Origin: Candidatus Auribacterota bacterium
Lineage (GTDB): Bacteria; Auribacterota; JAFGBW01
Direction of reading: 5' to 3'
Assembly: GCA_016932965.1 (NCBI GenBank)
Contig: JAFGBW010000290.1
Location: forward strand, 1 to 6,869
DNA: 6,869 nt
The notes beneath the pieces are model-generated. The model made no database searches, was not told where the DNA came from, and was given only the letters and a program-made list of their open reading frames with translations. Each line of letters begins with the position of its first letter. Positions within the stretch are counted from its first letter, which is position 1. Both the position numbers and the translations under genes were made by a program. Shown here one piece after another: positions 1,632 through 6,188 of the stretch.

Positions 1632-3532
1632 ACGGTCTCCATATCGTTGTCTGCATCAAACAGGTGCCTGATACCACCCAAGTCAGGATTGACCCGATAA
1701 AACACACCCTTATCCGCGAAGGTGTGCCTTCCATCATCAACCCCTATGATGTTCACGCCATCGAGGAAGGTTTGAGGCTGAAGGAAAAATATCAAGGCAG
1801 GGTGACGGTCATCAGCATGGGGCCTCCTCAGACCGAAGAAGCTCTGAGAAAAGCCTTGTCCCTTGGCGCGGATTCCGTATATCTCGTATGTGATCACATC
1901 TTTGCCGGCGCGGACACCAACTCGACAAGTCTGACTCTTTCCGGAGCCGTCAAATATCTGTCCAAAACAGATCCAGTGGATTTGATCCTGTGCGGCAAGC
2001 AGAGCATAGACGGCGATACAGCCCAGGTCGGTCCTGGAATCGCTTCCAGACTGAAATTCAATCCTTTGACTTACGTGGACCAGATACTAAACATGGATCT
2101 CTCCGCCGGCACCATCACTGTCCGCAGAAAACTCGAAGGCGCCTATGAAAAAGTCACCTCCCCCCTGCCGGCTCTTGTCACGGTGTTAAAAGAAATCAAC
2201 GAACCCCGTTACGCGACTCTGCCCGGCCTCATCCGGTCGCTCAGGGCAGACATACCTGTCCTCACCAATCATGATCTGGGTTTGAACCCCGAACAGCTCG
2301 GTTTCAAAGGTTCGCCGTCGAAAGTCAAACATATTTTCACTCCGCCTCTCCGTTCCGGCGGTAATAAAATCGCCGCTGATAATCCCTCTCACGGCGCTGA
2401 AGTTATTTTTAACTACATGCTGGAAGCAGGCCTTTTGAACACCAAGGAAGATCATTCCAGGAAAAAAACAAAACCCTCATCCCCGGACAAATCCGATGAT
2501 GTCATTTTTGAAGGGGACAATACCGTTGTCATCCAGCCTGGAGGAGTATGGATCTTTCTCGAGCACCATGACAATGAAATCGCCCGGGTATCACAGGAAT
2601 TACTGGGGATTGGAAAAATCCTTGCCCGTGATTCAAGATCTTTACTTGGCGCCATTGTCTGCGGGCACCAGATGGACAGTCTTGTTCCAAGTGCTTTTGG
2701 TTTTGGCGCGGACCATGTTTTTGTGGTGGACGACCCGGTGCTTTCATCCTACCGGACATTACCATACACTCAAGCGGTGACAAATCTGGTGGTAAAATAC
2801 AAACCGGACATTCTTCTTATGGGCGCAACCACGCAGGGCAGGGACCTGGCAGGTTCTGTTGCGGCGGAGCTTTCAACCGGACTGACTGCTGACTGCACAG
2901 GCCTTAAGATCAACACCAGGGGACTGTTGGAACAGACCCGGCCTGCTTTCGGGGGCAATCTCATGGCGACCATATTAACCGAGCATCACCGTCCGCAAAT
3001 GGCCACGGTCCGGCCCAGGGTCATTCCTTTACCTGCATACCATCCGAAAAAAAACGGCCGGATCATCTTTGAGAAGATTGATCTTAAGGAAAAAAATATT
3101 CCGGTGAAAATCATCGAACACATGAAAATCAGTTTATCTGAAACGAATGATATCTCCTGTGCGGACATCATTATTTCCGGCGGACGGGGCATGGGTTCAG
3201 GGCAGAATTTTTCCATGTTAAAGGATTTGGCCGCCATTTTAGACGGAGTGGTTGGCGCCACCCGCGCGGCAGTGGACTCCCGCTGGCTGAGTTATGACCA
3301 CCAGATTGGCCAGACAGGTAAAACCGTCCGGCCAACTCTGTACATCGCCTGCGGCATCTCCGGCGCTGTCCAGCACAGAGTCGGCATGCAGACCAGTGAC
3401 CATATCATCGCCGTCAATACCGATCCCGATGCCCCTGTCTTCAGCATCGCCAGCCTTGGTATCATCGGCAGCGCTATTGAAATCATCCCCGCCCTGAATC
3501 AGTTATTGCAAATGAGGCGTGCGGGGAAATAA
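1628..3532 (+). CDS. Fused electron transfer flavoprotein, beta-alpha (EtfB-EtfA)
   Basis: This 634-residue protein joins both ETF subunits, normally separate proteins of about 260 and 330 residues. ETF is a soluble FAD carrier taking electrons from acyl-CoA and other dehydrogenases to a membrane oxidoreductase. Residues 1-270 are EtfB, with the N-terminal IVVCIKQVPDTTQVRID and the nucleotide-binding block CGKQSIDGDTAQVGPGIASR near 122-141. A polar linker rich in K, S, P and D spans about 271-300. EtfA starts near 305 (GGVWIFLEHHDNEIARVSQE) and ends with the FAD domain: SGGRGMGSG (517-525), GATRAAVDSRW (543-553), GQTGKTVRP (561-569) and the signature LYIACGISGAVQH (571-583). All main cofactor motifs are present, so both halves look functional. 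DGDTAQVGP is of the kind seen in anaerobe ETFs, including bifurcating ones; bifurcation itself cannot be claimed. The ATG overlaps the upstream stop. No acyl-CoA dehydrogenase gene is visible. Confidence 0.95.
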   Translation: MNGLHIVVCIKQVPDTTQVRIDPIKHTLIREGVPSIINPYDVHAIEEGLRLKEKYQGRVTVISMGPPQTEEALRKALSLGADSVYLVCDHIFAGADTNSTSLTLSGAVKYLSKTDPVDLILCGKQSIDGDTAQVGPGIASRLKFNPLTYVDQILNMDLSAGTITVRRKLEGAYEKVTSPLPALVTVLKEINEPRYATLPGLIRSLRADIPVLTNHDLGLNPEQLGFKGSPSKVKHIFTPPLRSGGNKIAADNPSHGAEVIFNYMLEAGLLNTKEDHSRKKTKPSSPDKSDDVIFEGDNTVVIQPGGVWIFLEHHDNEIARVSQELLGIGKILARDSRSLLGAIVCGHQMDSLVPSAFGFGADHVFVVDDPVLSSYRTLPYTQAVTNLVVKYKPDILLMGATTQGRDLAGSVAAELSTGLTADCTGLKINTRGLLEQTRPAFGGNLMATILTEHHRPQMATVRPRVIPLPAYHPKKNGRIIFEKIDLKEKNIPVKIIEHMKISLSETNDISCADIIISGGRGMGSGQNFSMLKDLAAILDGVVGATRAAVDSRWLSYDHQIGQTGKTVRPTLYIACGISGAVQHRVGMQTSDHIIAVNTDPDAPVFSIASLGIIGSAIEIIPALNQLLQMRRAGK

Positions 3533-3551: not shown

Positions 3552-3596
3552 TTTGGGAGGAAAACTTCTTTTGCCAAAAGAAGTTTTCCTCCCAAA
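3552..3596. terminator. Perfect 21-bp hairpin after the ETF fusion
   Basis: Bases 3552-3572 and 3576-3596 are exactly complementary over 21 positions, with a GCC loop. The arm begins TTTGGGAGGAAAAC. It starts 19 bases past the ETF stop, where a terminator is expected. No T-run follows the stem directly; only CTTTT appears some bases later, so it may instead act as an RNA-stabilising or bidirectional hairpin. It belongs with the similar hairpins at 3622-3658 and 5760-5795. Confidence 0.6.
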
Positions 3597-3621
3597 CCCG
3601 CCTTTTAAGAAAATCAATCCG

Positions 3622-3658
3622 CCGGGGATGATTTTTTGAAGCAAAAAATCATCCCCGG
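3622..3658. terminator. Perfect 17-bp hairpin, second of a tandem pair
   Basis: Bases 3622-3638 (CCGGGGATGATTTTTTG) pair perfectly with 3642-3658 across an AAG loop. It lies 25 bases after the first hairpin. The preceding AATCCG and the overall design match the palindrome after the DUF4340 gene (5760-5795), although the arm bases differ. A terminator or repeated intergenic hairpin role is inferred. Confidence 0.55.
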
Positions 3659-3810: not shown

Positions 3811-3850
3811 TTGAAATAGAAAACTTGCATATCTTTCATCTTAAAGGAGC

Positions 3851-4042
3851 GGACTTAACCCGCTTTTCTCACCGGGTTTCGTGATGAGACCGCGAAAAGC
3901 CAGATGAATTCGAGGATAGGAGATAAAAAAACGGATGATGGCATATTGCAATATGTCGAAGTCGTTTTTTAACTCCAGCGCAGAAGACATCGGATTTTCA
4001 CGGTCGTAATAGAAACTACGGTGAGAAAAACGGGTTAGGCCC
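3851..4042. mobile_element. MITE-like foldback element with 24-nt terminal inverted repeats
   Basis: The ends 3851-3874 and 4019-4042 are inverted copies agreeing at 21 of 24 positions; the core reads TAACCCG then a T-rich stretch, then CTCACCG. The inside folds on itself as well. Bases 3888-3906 (GACCGCGAAAAGCCAGATG) pair imperfectly with 3988-4005, AAAAAACG (3926-3933) pairs with CGTTTTTT (3963-3970), and the centre is the palindrome CATATTGCAATATG (3942-3955). The whole 192 bp is therefore one long imperfect palindrome with concentric arms. The flanks 3843-3850 (AAAGGAGC) and 4043-4050 (AAAGGGAA) share five leading bases, a possible decayed target duplication. There is no transposase, so a full-length parent elsewhere would have to move it. 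I cannot assign the IS family. Confidence 0.75.
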
Positions 4043-4049
4043 AAAGGGA
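4043..4049 (+). promoter_or_regulatory. Ribosome binding site of the DUF4340 gene
   Basis: AAAGGGA lies 7 bases before the ATG at 4057 and directly abuts the foldback element. A close copy, AAAGGAG, abuts the element's other end at 3843-3849. The pair suggests the insertion duplicated the original Shine-Dalgarno site and left the gene a usable one. Confidence 0.6.
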
Positions 4050-4056
4050 AATATTA

Positions 4057-5736
4057 ATGCCGAAAAGACTGACCGTTGTTCTCATCCTCTTAGGCCTAGT
4101 CATTCTCTATCTTCTTCTGGTGGAAAGCCGCTTAACAACCACGGATGAACGCATCAAGAATAAAAACACCGCCCTGCAGTTCCCCGAGAATTCGCTTCAA
4201 GAAATATCCTTCAGCGGCATCACCCTTGAAAAATACGGGGACCTGTTCCGTCTGAAAAAACCCTTTTCCCATCCGGCTTCAAACAAAGCATGCATGCGTT
4301 TGTTCACCCAGTTTGAAAAAGTGATCCGCGTGAATGTTTTCCCCAACTGGCGTGAAAATGACCGGACCCTTGCCGATTTTGGACTGGACTCCCCGGCATG
4401 GACAGTCACTTTAAAGTCCAAAAATCAAGCTAACGTGATCAAGATCGGCAAGAAAGTGGAAGGCCAGGAGGAATACTATGCTCAGCTGGATGCGGAGCCG
4501 TCTGTTTTTACAGTTAAAGAATCACTGGTTAATGAACTGAGTAAGAATCCTGCCGCCTATGCTGATACGGAGCCGTTCGATTTTTTGAAGGAACAGCCGT
4601 CTGAAGTCAAATGGTTCATGCCCGGCCGCGGAACATTTTTACGCCATATGCACGGCTTGTACGTGGTGGGGGACCACCAGGGACGGATATGGCAGGCGCT
4701 GAAGAAACGGAGCGAAGCATTCATCACCCTTTTAACCCGTCTGGACCTCTCTGAGCTTCATCTGACGCCCATTTCCGATGAAGAATCCGGCGTGGCTAGC
4801 CCCTGGTGTTATGTCTATGCGAGAGGGCCTAACCAAAAAAGCAAATCACTGCTCATCGGATCAGAACACAACGGAAAACGCTGGGCCAAACTCGAAAAAG
4901 ACGGCATGGGATTCGAACTGGACTCAAACCTGTTAGAAGTATTCAATCTTGATTTCGAGCAGTTGGCCGCAGGAAATCTCCTGGAAGGGGAAATCATGAC
5001 CCTTGAAAAGGCGGTGTTTCACTTTTCATCATCAGATACCTCGCTCGTATTAAAAGGGCGTAAAAACGAATGGACCATGGAGCATCCCTATGCCTGGCTT
5101 TTTTCATCCCGAAGAATATTGAATCTGGTTCTTAGGTTCGCAGTCAGGGAAGTGCTTTCCTTTGAAAACAGGACCCTCTCCAATCCGTTCCTGACCGTCA
5201 CCTTCCACTACGAAGACGATCCCGATAAATCCGAAAAGGTGGAGCTCTTCACGGACAAAAATCAGCCTGATTTATGTTTCGCGCAGAGAAACGGGTCTTC
5301 CACAGCCGGAGCCATGAAGGCCGTTTCAGAAGACGAATTTCCTGAGGATCCCTTTTATTTCATGATGGAAAAACCTTTTTCCGCTGTCATGGATAAAACA
5401 ACGAGAATCGAGATTCAAAAACAGGAAAAATCCAGTATTCTTCAGCAGAATGAAAGGGGAGTCTGGAATTTCGAAAAAAATGAGCTGCCTGTGAACACAG
5501 AACCGGCTCAATTCATAGAAGCGCTGAAAAACAGTACCTGCCGCACAGCCATGTCCAGAAAAGAAGGCGTGGATTTCGGGTTTACCGATCCTTCCTATGT
5601 CGTGAAATTCTATGATGATGAAGGGAAATCGTTTTTCATGGTCAGGGTCGGGTCCTATTCCACCTCCAAGGAAACCTATCTGGAAGGCGATGACGCCGTG
5701 TTCATGTTCATGAGGGACTTCCCTCAGATGGAATGA
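4057..5736 (+). CDS. Membrane-anchored DUF4340 protein
   Basis: The 559-residue product has one N-terminal hydrophobic helix (about 5-22, LTVVLILLGLVILYLLLV) after a KR pair, with no evident lipobox, so it is probably anchored in the inner membrane with the bulk in the periplasm. The rest matches DUF4340 (PF14238). Its characteristic unit, FGLxxP followed by beta strands and a short glycine-containing turn, appears at 108-165 (FGLDSPAWTVTLKS ... IKIGKKVEGQEEYYAQLD). It recurs at 507-550 (FGFTDPSYVVKFYDDEG ... RVGSYSTSKETYLEGD). A related stretch near 251-290 (YVYARG ... LLIGSEHNGKRWAKLE) suggests a third, diverged copy. DUF4340 proteins are usually encoded beside Gld-type ABC transporter genes; none is visible here and this gene appears monocistronic, with its own promoter (3780) and a following palindrome (5760). 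The molecular function is unknown. Confidence 0.85.
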   Translation: MPKRLTVVLILLGLVILYLLLVESRLTTTDERIKNKNTALQFPENSLQEISFSGITLEKYGDLFRLKKPFSHPASNKACMRLFTQFEKVIRVNVFPNWRENDRTLADFGLDSPAWTVTLKSKNQANVIKIGKKVEGQEEYYAQLDAEPSVFTVKESLVNELSKNPAAYADTEPFDFLKEQPSEVKWFMPGRGTFLRHMHGLYVVGDHQGRIWQALKKRSEAFITLLTRLDLSELHLTPISDEESGVASPWCYVYARGPNQKSKSLLIGSEHNGKRWAKLEKDGMGFELDSNLLEVFNLDFEQLAAGNLLEGEIMTLEKAVFHFSSSDTSLVLKGRKNEWTMEHPYAWLFSSRRILNLVLRFAVREVLSFENRTLSNPFLTVTFHYEDDPDKSEKVELFTDKNQPDLCFAQRNGSSTAGAMKAVSEDEFPEDPFYFMMEKPFSAVMDKTTRIEIQKQEKSSILQQNERGVWNFEKNELPVNTEPAQFIEALKNSTCRTAMSRKEGVDFGFTDPSYVVKFYDDEGKSFFMVRVGSYSTSKETYLEGDDAVFMFMRDFPQME

Positions 5737-5759: not shown

Positions 5760-5795
5760 GCGGGAAGATCTTTTTTATAAAAAAGATCTTCCCGC
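5760..5795. terminator. 36-bp perfect palindrome after the DUF4340 gene
   Basis: Bases 5760-5777 (GCGGGAAGATCTTTTTTA) are the exact reverse complement of 5778-5795. As RNA, about 17 bp would pair around a small loop. A second inverted pair surrounds it: GATGAAAT (5750-5757) and ATTTCATC (5810-5817). It lies 24 bases after the stop codon, a natural terminator position, though no T-run follows the stem. Confidence 0.6.
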
Positions 5796-5879
5796 ACCCT
5801 TTACAAAAAATTTCATCGGCGGTTACATGGGAACCTGCTGTCATCCTTGAGATAAATATGACAATCAATTTATTAGATA

Positions 5880-5907
5880 CCACGAAAAGCACTAAAAACA
5901 CGAAAAT
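5880..5907 (+). repeat. CACGAA-type repeat, left copy inside the GxxExxY start
   Basis: The 28 bases start CCACGAAAAGCACTAAAAA and follow a 9-nt period. They align without gaps to the reverse complement of 6234-6261 with 21 of 28 identities. Because the period is three codons, the gene simply reads through it near its N-terminus (TTKSTKNTK). Confidence 0.55.
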
Positions 5908-6119
5908 TTTATATAAAGAAGAATCCTATAAAATTACAGGTGCATGTTTTAAAGTATACAAAGATAAAGGTCCGGGATTCCTGGAAGCAGTTTATCAAGA
6001 GTGTTTAAAGATTGAGTTTGAACATCAAAATATACCATTTATTGAGAAACCCAAGCTCGAAATTAAAAAACAGAGAAAAGAAATTAGGTTTATTGATAAA
6101 CTTTGGGCATTATCCAAAG

Positions 6120-6188
6120 TTCGACTCGAAGCCAGGATGGCGTAGAGGGACGACAAAGTCGCCTTTAGGCAAGGACAGGATGTCCGCG
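6120..6188 (+). repeat. GC-rich 69-nt in-frame insert with two hairpins
   Basis: The insert separates HYPK from VQYERIVL in the C-terminal part of the GxxExxY relic, where the family normally runs straight through. It is exactly 69 bases (23 codons, SKPGWRRGTTKSPLGKDRM in the middle). Forty of its 69 bases are G or C, against a strongly AT-rich host gene. It contains two short hairpins: CGAC-AAA-GTCG (6151-6161) and GGACA-GGA-TGTCC (6173-6185). The insert edges are inferred by comparison with remembered family C-termini and could shift by a few bases. It resembles a REP-like or palindromic element inserted in frame. Confidence 0.55.

Follow-up and report, generated by a model that had tools for sequence, protein, structure and literature searches.

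Between the electron-transfer-flavoprotein (ETF) fusion gene, which ends at 3532, and the DUF4340 gene (4057-5736, + strand; 559 aa; Pfam PF14238, E 1.6e-25) of the window, the 6,869-nt stretch of DNA analysed here, lies a long palindrome, and we asked what this sequence is and how it came to stand in front of a gene. An imperfect palindrome of 192 bp was found at 3851-4042, between the Shine-Dalgarno (SD)-like octamers AAAGGAGC (3843-3850, + strand) and AAAGGGAA (4043-4050, + strand), just where the preliminary description had placed it and them. Its outer arms of 51 nt (3851-3901 and 3992-4042) are 73% complementary, and its centre is palindromic. The strand was predicted to fold end to end at -83.3 kcal/mol, compared with -48.4 ± 4.2 kcal/mol for shuffled sequences (z = -8.4), and none of 200 shuffles matched this stability. 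The palindrome has no coding capacity. When curated Rfam covariance models were compared with the element, none reached its gathering score, and the single match was at chance level (E 8.5). From sequence comparison, we conclude that the palindrome is very probably a copy of a new MITE family for which IS1380-type transposases provide mobilisation in trans.

Further copies, for which the preliminary description had suggested a search, were present in the window's own genome (G000), a 3.14-Mb draft in 300 contigs that is 92.6% complete. A model of the element ends (R1) gave 26 end matches, corresponding to 12 good places plus fragments; the element is a dispersed repeat. The window copy belongs to a short class with C226, C97, and C216 (~184 bp including the target sites). 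A long class, in which the centre is ~95 bp longer, comprises C87, C98, C60, C1, and C64, and three copies (C113, C124, and C288) have an internal deletion with both ends retained. The copies lie mostly in spacers or at gene ends and occupy unrelated gene contexts. A model of the full-length element (R2) gave no match near the DUF4340 homologues of relatives (13 loci), although this is a weak test as the homology is distant. Since other copies exist in the genome and none was found at these distant homologues, the palindrome lacks the appearance of a regulatory RNA tied to one locus.

The borders of the element were set by alignment with copies from its own and other genomes. The aligned copies share sequence from CCCG to CGGG and diverge beyond a flanking YTAR 4-mer, and the element proper is the CCCG...CGGG segment of 176 bp at 3859-4034 (+ strand). 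The window copy is flanked by TTAA on the left (3855-3858) and TTAG on the right (4035-4038), with one mismatch between the two 4-bp target sites. It had been proposed that a foldback element landed in the SD site of the DUF4340 gene and that the octamers AAAGGAGC and AAAGGGAA are the resulting target duplication. Both octamers are SD-like, but they agree at only 5 of 8 positions and lie 4 bp outside the YTAR sites, and 8 bp separate each of them from the family border. In addition, the GGAC and GCCC between the octamers and the YTAR sites are absent from other copies, and the flanks of those copies are YTAR and not SD-like. The AAAGG common to both octamers is easily due to chance because 22% of pairs of random 20-nt windows lying 200 nt apart share a 5-mer. 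We regard this origin of the octamers as extremely improbable. Nor did the insertion duplicate the SD site: when the flanks are joined at the 4-bp YTAR, the inferred empty site keeps AAAGGAG and AAAGGGA ~20 nt apart. AAAGGAGC lies outside the element and is no target duplication, and AAAGGGAA, which starts 9 nt past the element's last base, is likely the SD site of the DUF4340 gene.

We then examined the flanks of 108 aligned copies. YTAR was found on the left in 82% and on the right in 92% of these copies, 39 of which had been recruited by a pattern requiring YTAR on the right, and the sites were mainly CTAG and TTAA. The left 4-mer equalled the right 4-mer in 69 of the 108 copies, against a mean of 35.9 and a maximum of 52 in 20,000 permutations, indicating a target-site duplication. 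Because CTAG and TTAA are self-complementary, the comparison of direct with inverted agreement rests on non-palindromic sites. There, seven distinct copies showed direct and three showed inverted agreement (L234 repeats L094, and the two were counted as one copy); taken alone, these counts give modest support for duplication over a longer inverted repeat. Within single genomes, copies switch between CTAG and TTAA with both sides changing together, a pattern that fits target duplication and argues against a fixed end.

The anatomy of the family was read from an alignment of 27 copies (A2). Next to the terminal repeat CCCGCATTTCTCAC, the left side carries TTTCGTnRCGAG and the right side CGCAGTAGAAA, always in the same orientation. 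The terminal inverted repeats of 17-18 bp are conserved across phylum-level lineages. In the window copy, the left terminal inverted repeat CCCGCTTTTCTCACCGGG (3859-3876, + strand), a conserved end common to IS1380-family elements, is followed by the left asymmetric motif TTTCGTGATGAG (3877-3888, + strand). The central palindrome GCATATTGCAATATG (3941-3955) has the family form GGCATA..TTGACA..TATGTCGAG, identified from A2 and from RNAalifold with compensatory pairs. On the other side are the right asymmetric motif CGTAATAGAAA (4005-4015, + strand), part of which served as the cross-genome probe, and the right terminal inverted repeat (4017-4034, - strand), also a conserved end in the aligned copies. 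The window copy matched R2 at 81.5 bits (E 2.8e-25), a score obtained with the window copy itself among the 27 sequences of the model. Family members range from 61 to 280 bp, with classes of 61, 70, 93-95, ~135, and ~184 bp, and the four smaller classes retain the ends and motifs. The minimal copies L101, L122, and L133 (61-70 bp) consist of nearly just the two ends and TTCGT..CGCAGTAGAAA, and the L084 copy is preceded by a second, inverted end; these four are candidates for the smallest mobile unit.

The source of a transposase was sought with PF13701 in 19 carrier genomes, and ten had a match at E ≤ 0.001. No match was obtained in the window's own genome, the 92.6% complete draft in 300 contigs, which thus provided no partner transposase. 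Insertion sequences often drop out of draft assemblies in many contigs. A transposase in the same genome is also not strictly defining for an IS1380 derivative, since movement may be past. At seven PF13701 loci, distributed over five genomes, the transposase gene is accompanied by YTAR|CCYGSATWTCTCAY-type ends. Such an end was present on both sides in L141 (G012) and on both sides of an internally deleted insertion sequence in L146 (G148), and one end each was found in L238, L244, and L248 (G161), L242 (G155), and L245 (G153), that of L244 being the most divergent. For all four proteins tested, the top match was NF033539, "IS1380 family transposase," with E-values of 9e-113 and 1e-121 for two long proteins and scores below the curated cut-off for two fragments. 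Over the first 17 nt, the insertion-sequence ends of G161a and G155 matched the MITE consensus at 16 positions and the right end of G012 at 15 of 17. For these three ends, the consensus of the same genome was the best or tied best, whereas the other ends were less telling. Beyond the ends, the element does not evidently resemble any of the IS1380 elements examined, and the asymmetric motifs TTTCGTnRCGAG and CGCAGTAGAAA were not found together in the insertion-sequence ends examined. The shared ends are good evidence, but not proof, that the element is mobilised in trans by IS1380-type transposases. The element is thus short and multicopy (12 copies in its own genome and up to ~160 matches elsewhere), lacks coding capacity, and is bounded by terminal inverted repeats, as is characteristic of a MITE, and these repeats are the same as those of elements with an IS1380 transposase gene, as is characteristic of an IS1380 derivative.

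In the mechanism that we propose, an IS1380-type DDE transposase supplied in trans would bind the 17-18-bp ends (CCCGCATTTCTCAC...), excise the element, and insert it at a YTAR target, in most cases CTAG or TTAA, with duplication of these 4 bp. At the window locus, the target would have been a TTAR between the ETF and DUF4340 genes, a few bases 5' of the gene's own SD site. If transcription comes from upstream, the window copy would add a 180-nt hairpin to the leader, with the SD site staying outside the stem. That a transposase acts in trans, the sequence of events at this locus, and any effect on the DUF4340 transcript are inferences.

The proposal that an element landed in the ribosome binding site of the DUF4340 gene holds insofar as a mobile foldback element, known from its other copies, apparently landed in the leader, but neither the octamers nor the SD site was duplicated. 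The TTGACA promoter assumed earlier scored below the consensus threshold, and the + strand yielded no sigma-70-like site. The element likely lengthens the leader if transcription of the gene begins upstream of it. The predicted leader does contain the hairpin that had been envisaged, with its stem ending just before the SD site, but removing the element made no clear difference to the predicted accessibility of the SD site. A longer leader bearing a hairpin is plausible, as is an effect of the element on the DUF4340 leader, and expression may be affected.

The window carries other repeats. A second dispersed repeat at 3552-3658 consists of two perfect or near-perfect hairpins joined by the conserved linker AACCCGCCTTTTAAGAAAATCAAT, and at least five other copies of ~100 bp are present in the same genome (C283 twice, C97, C197, and C261). 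Among four copies compared, both stems change, with each change matched on the opposite arm, and the linker is constant. By its appearance, this repeat could be a structured element of two hairpins or a double terminator that is mobile. A third perfect hairpin, 3' of the DUF4340 gene at 5760-5795 (GCGGGAAGATCTTTTTTA/TAAAAAAGATCTTCCCGC), resembles the second of the two hairpins at 3552-3658 in style; no hairpin like it (arms of at least 15 bp) was detected in 29 kb of other loci from the same genome or in 47 kb from relatives. Furthermore, CACGAAG-type repeats occur at 878-907 (accacgaaggacacgaagagcacagaag) and 5880-5908 (accacgaaaagcactaaaaacacgaaaa), the latter overlapping the start of a short PDDEXK_3 frame (5858-6145, 95 aa) that looks truncated, and cacgaag runs of a similar kind flank the element copies C60 and C124.

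Next, we considered whether the hairpin of the element is itself maintained. The stem between the conserved blocks varies freely among genomes, and end-to-end pairing persists in nearly every copy, across size classes from 61 to ~184 bp. RNAalifold gave 33 consensus pairs, of which 16 had at least one compensatory change between genomes, including one pair (columns 4/214) that belongs to the target site and is best left out of the element's tally. Within genomes, for which the best-scoring copies were taken, the deviation from the consensus at paired versus unpaired positions was 0.047 versus 0.120 in G155, 0.036 versus 0.085 in G161, and 0.043 versus 0.101 in G012. With 22 or 40 nt trimmed from each end, this contrast was reached by the unrotated register alone in G155 and G161, but it was weak in G012, where 7 of 178 rotations reached it. 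These observations, together with the conserved asymmetric motifs in internal loops, would also be expected of a conserved structured RNA, either a cis-regulatory leader or a small RNA, that is multicopy by coincidence. However, the YTAR flanks, the unrelated gene contexts, the lack of an Rfam match, and the ends held in common with IS1380 transposase genes all stand against such an RNA, as does, in a weak test, the lack of an element at the DUF4340 homologues of relatives. We consider it very unlikely.

A MITE whose hairpin has a selected role is compatible with the IS1380-type MITE explanation. Variation at paired bases is about half that at unpaired bases, clearly in two of three genomes, so the hairpin itself may be selected, and palindromy is retained in nearly all copies. 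Doubly changed pairs numbered 27, 10, and 6 in G155, G161, and G012, against 2.8, 1.6, and 1.1 expected under independence. However, the majority of these pairs in G155 and G161 are broken and not compensated, so the excess of double changes does not by itself imply compensation; subfamily structure, alignment shifts, and template switching between the arms are alternative sources. The selection of best-scoring copies and the weak contrast in G012 also weigh against a selected role, which we regard as possible but doubtful. The same tentative standing applies to its conceivable forms, such as recognition of single-stranded DNA or a cruciform in transposition, or an RNA hairpin through which insertions into transcribed spacers become tolerable.

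The distribution of the IS1380-type MITE was then determined in other genomes. The right-end pattern was found in 54 stretches of one-per-species genomes, most with an inverted partner within 61-238 bp; single-hit records lacking such a partner (e.g., L085, L092, and L121) are probably chance matches. According to the record titles, the other carriers include Opitutia/Verrucomicrobia, Acidobacteria, Gamma- and Deltaproteobacteria, and Chlamydiae. The element sequence of a groundwater "Chlamydiae" MAG (L108) equals that of G012 (L082), a genome of the window's phylum. R2 matches numbered from 2 to at least 166 per genome in the 19 genomes tested (the window's own and 18 others), with some reverse-strand self matches included. 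Within the window's phylum, 8 of 43 genomes had matches, as did 8 of 185 genomes sampled from the class to which the gammaproteobacterial host G155 belongs. The 176-180-bp architecture was seen again across phylum-level lineages, at up to ~160 copies per genome. It is conceivable, though in our judgment rather unlikely, that a single palindromic IS1380-type MITE lineage kept its 176-bp architecture as it spread across these lineages and that its hairpin is selected as a structure recognised by the transposition or host RNA machinery. Carriage on plasmids or phages was also considered, and there was no match for three element queries in plasmids or two in phages. Among viral contigs, the first pattern gave no match, and the second gave four (L137-L140) that represent one identical stretch with no inverted partner; this stretch is not the element and is probably a chance match.

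Several known repeat families resemble the element. ERIC/IRU repeats of enterobacteria are likewise small, non-coding, intergenic, end-to-end palindromic, multicopy, and MITE-like. ERIC is ~127 bp, has TA target sites, and is narrow in host range; by contrast, the present element differs in its ends and sequence and extends to phylum-level lineages. The Correia/NEMIS, RUP, and BOX repeats share with it the form of short dispersed repeats able to alter the leaders of neighbouring transcripts, but they are also narrow in host range, and their ends and parent transposases are unlike those of the present element. IS1380-family insertion sequences (PF13701, NF033539) have the same terminal repeats CCYGSATWTCTCAY and YTAR flanks, whereas the element has no transposase gene, is 61-280 bp long, and carries subterminal motifs of its own, TTTCGTnRCGAG and CGCAGTAGAAA. 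Descriptions of bacterial MITEs are usually confined to a single species or genus. The MITEs of Anabaena sp. 90 are 77-541 bp, non-coding, bounded by inverted repeats, and mostly intergenic, and no insertion-sequence ends matching them were reported from that genome (PMC3542288). The present element, in contrast, has matching IS1380-type ends in several carrier genomes. Among the matches listed from the open-licence PMC literature, no paper was found to contain the element's sequence or an earlier description of it, and passages from papers that mention both IS1380 and MITEs did not describe it. We take the element to be a new MITE family whose ends are of IS1380 type and whose breadth and retained end-to-end hairpin are unusual.

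The target preference bears on how insertions are tolerated. YTAR includes TAA and TAG, and among 105 element ends with enough upstream DNA, 20 (19%) coincide exactly with the stop codon that closes an open frame of at least 100 codons, compared with 183 of 3,509 other YTAR sites (5%). Survival of harmless insertions suffices as an explanation for this excess, and a YTAR site at a stop codon is a simple way for an insertion to spare the upstream gene. The family provides IS1380 transposases with a natural non-autonomous substrate whose fold is directly testable, and as a source of leader hairpins and of breaks in assemblies it has been overlooked. Because its ends, motifs, and length can be recognised in several phylum-level lineages, it is useful for marking horizontal spread among bacteria that are uncultured.
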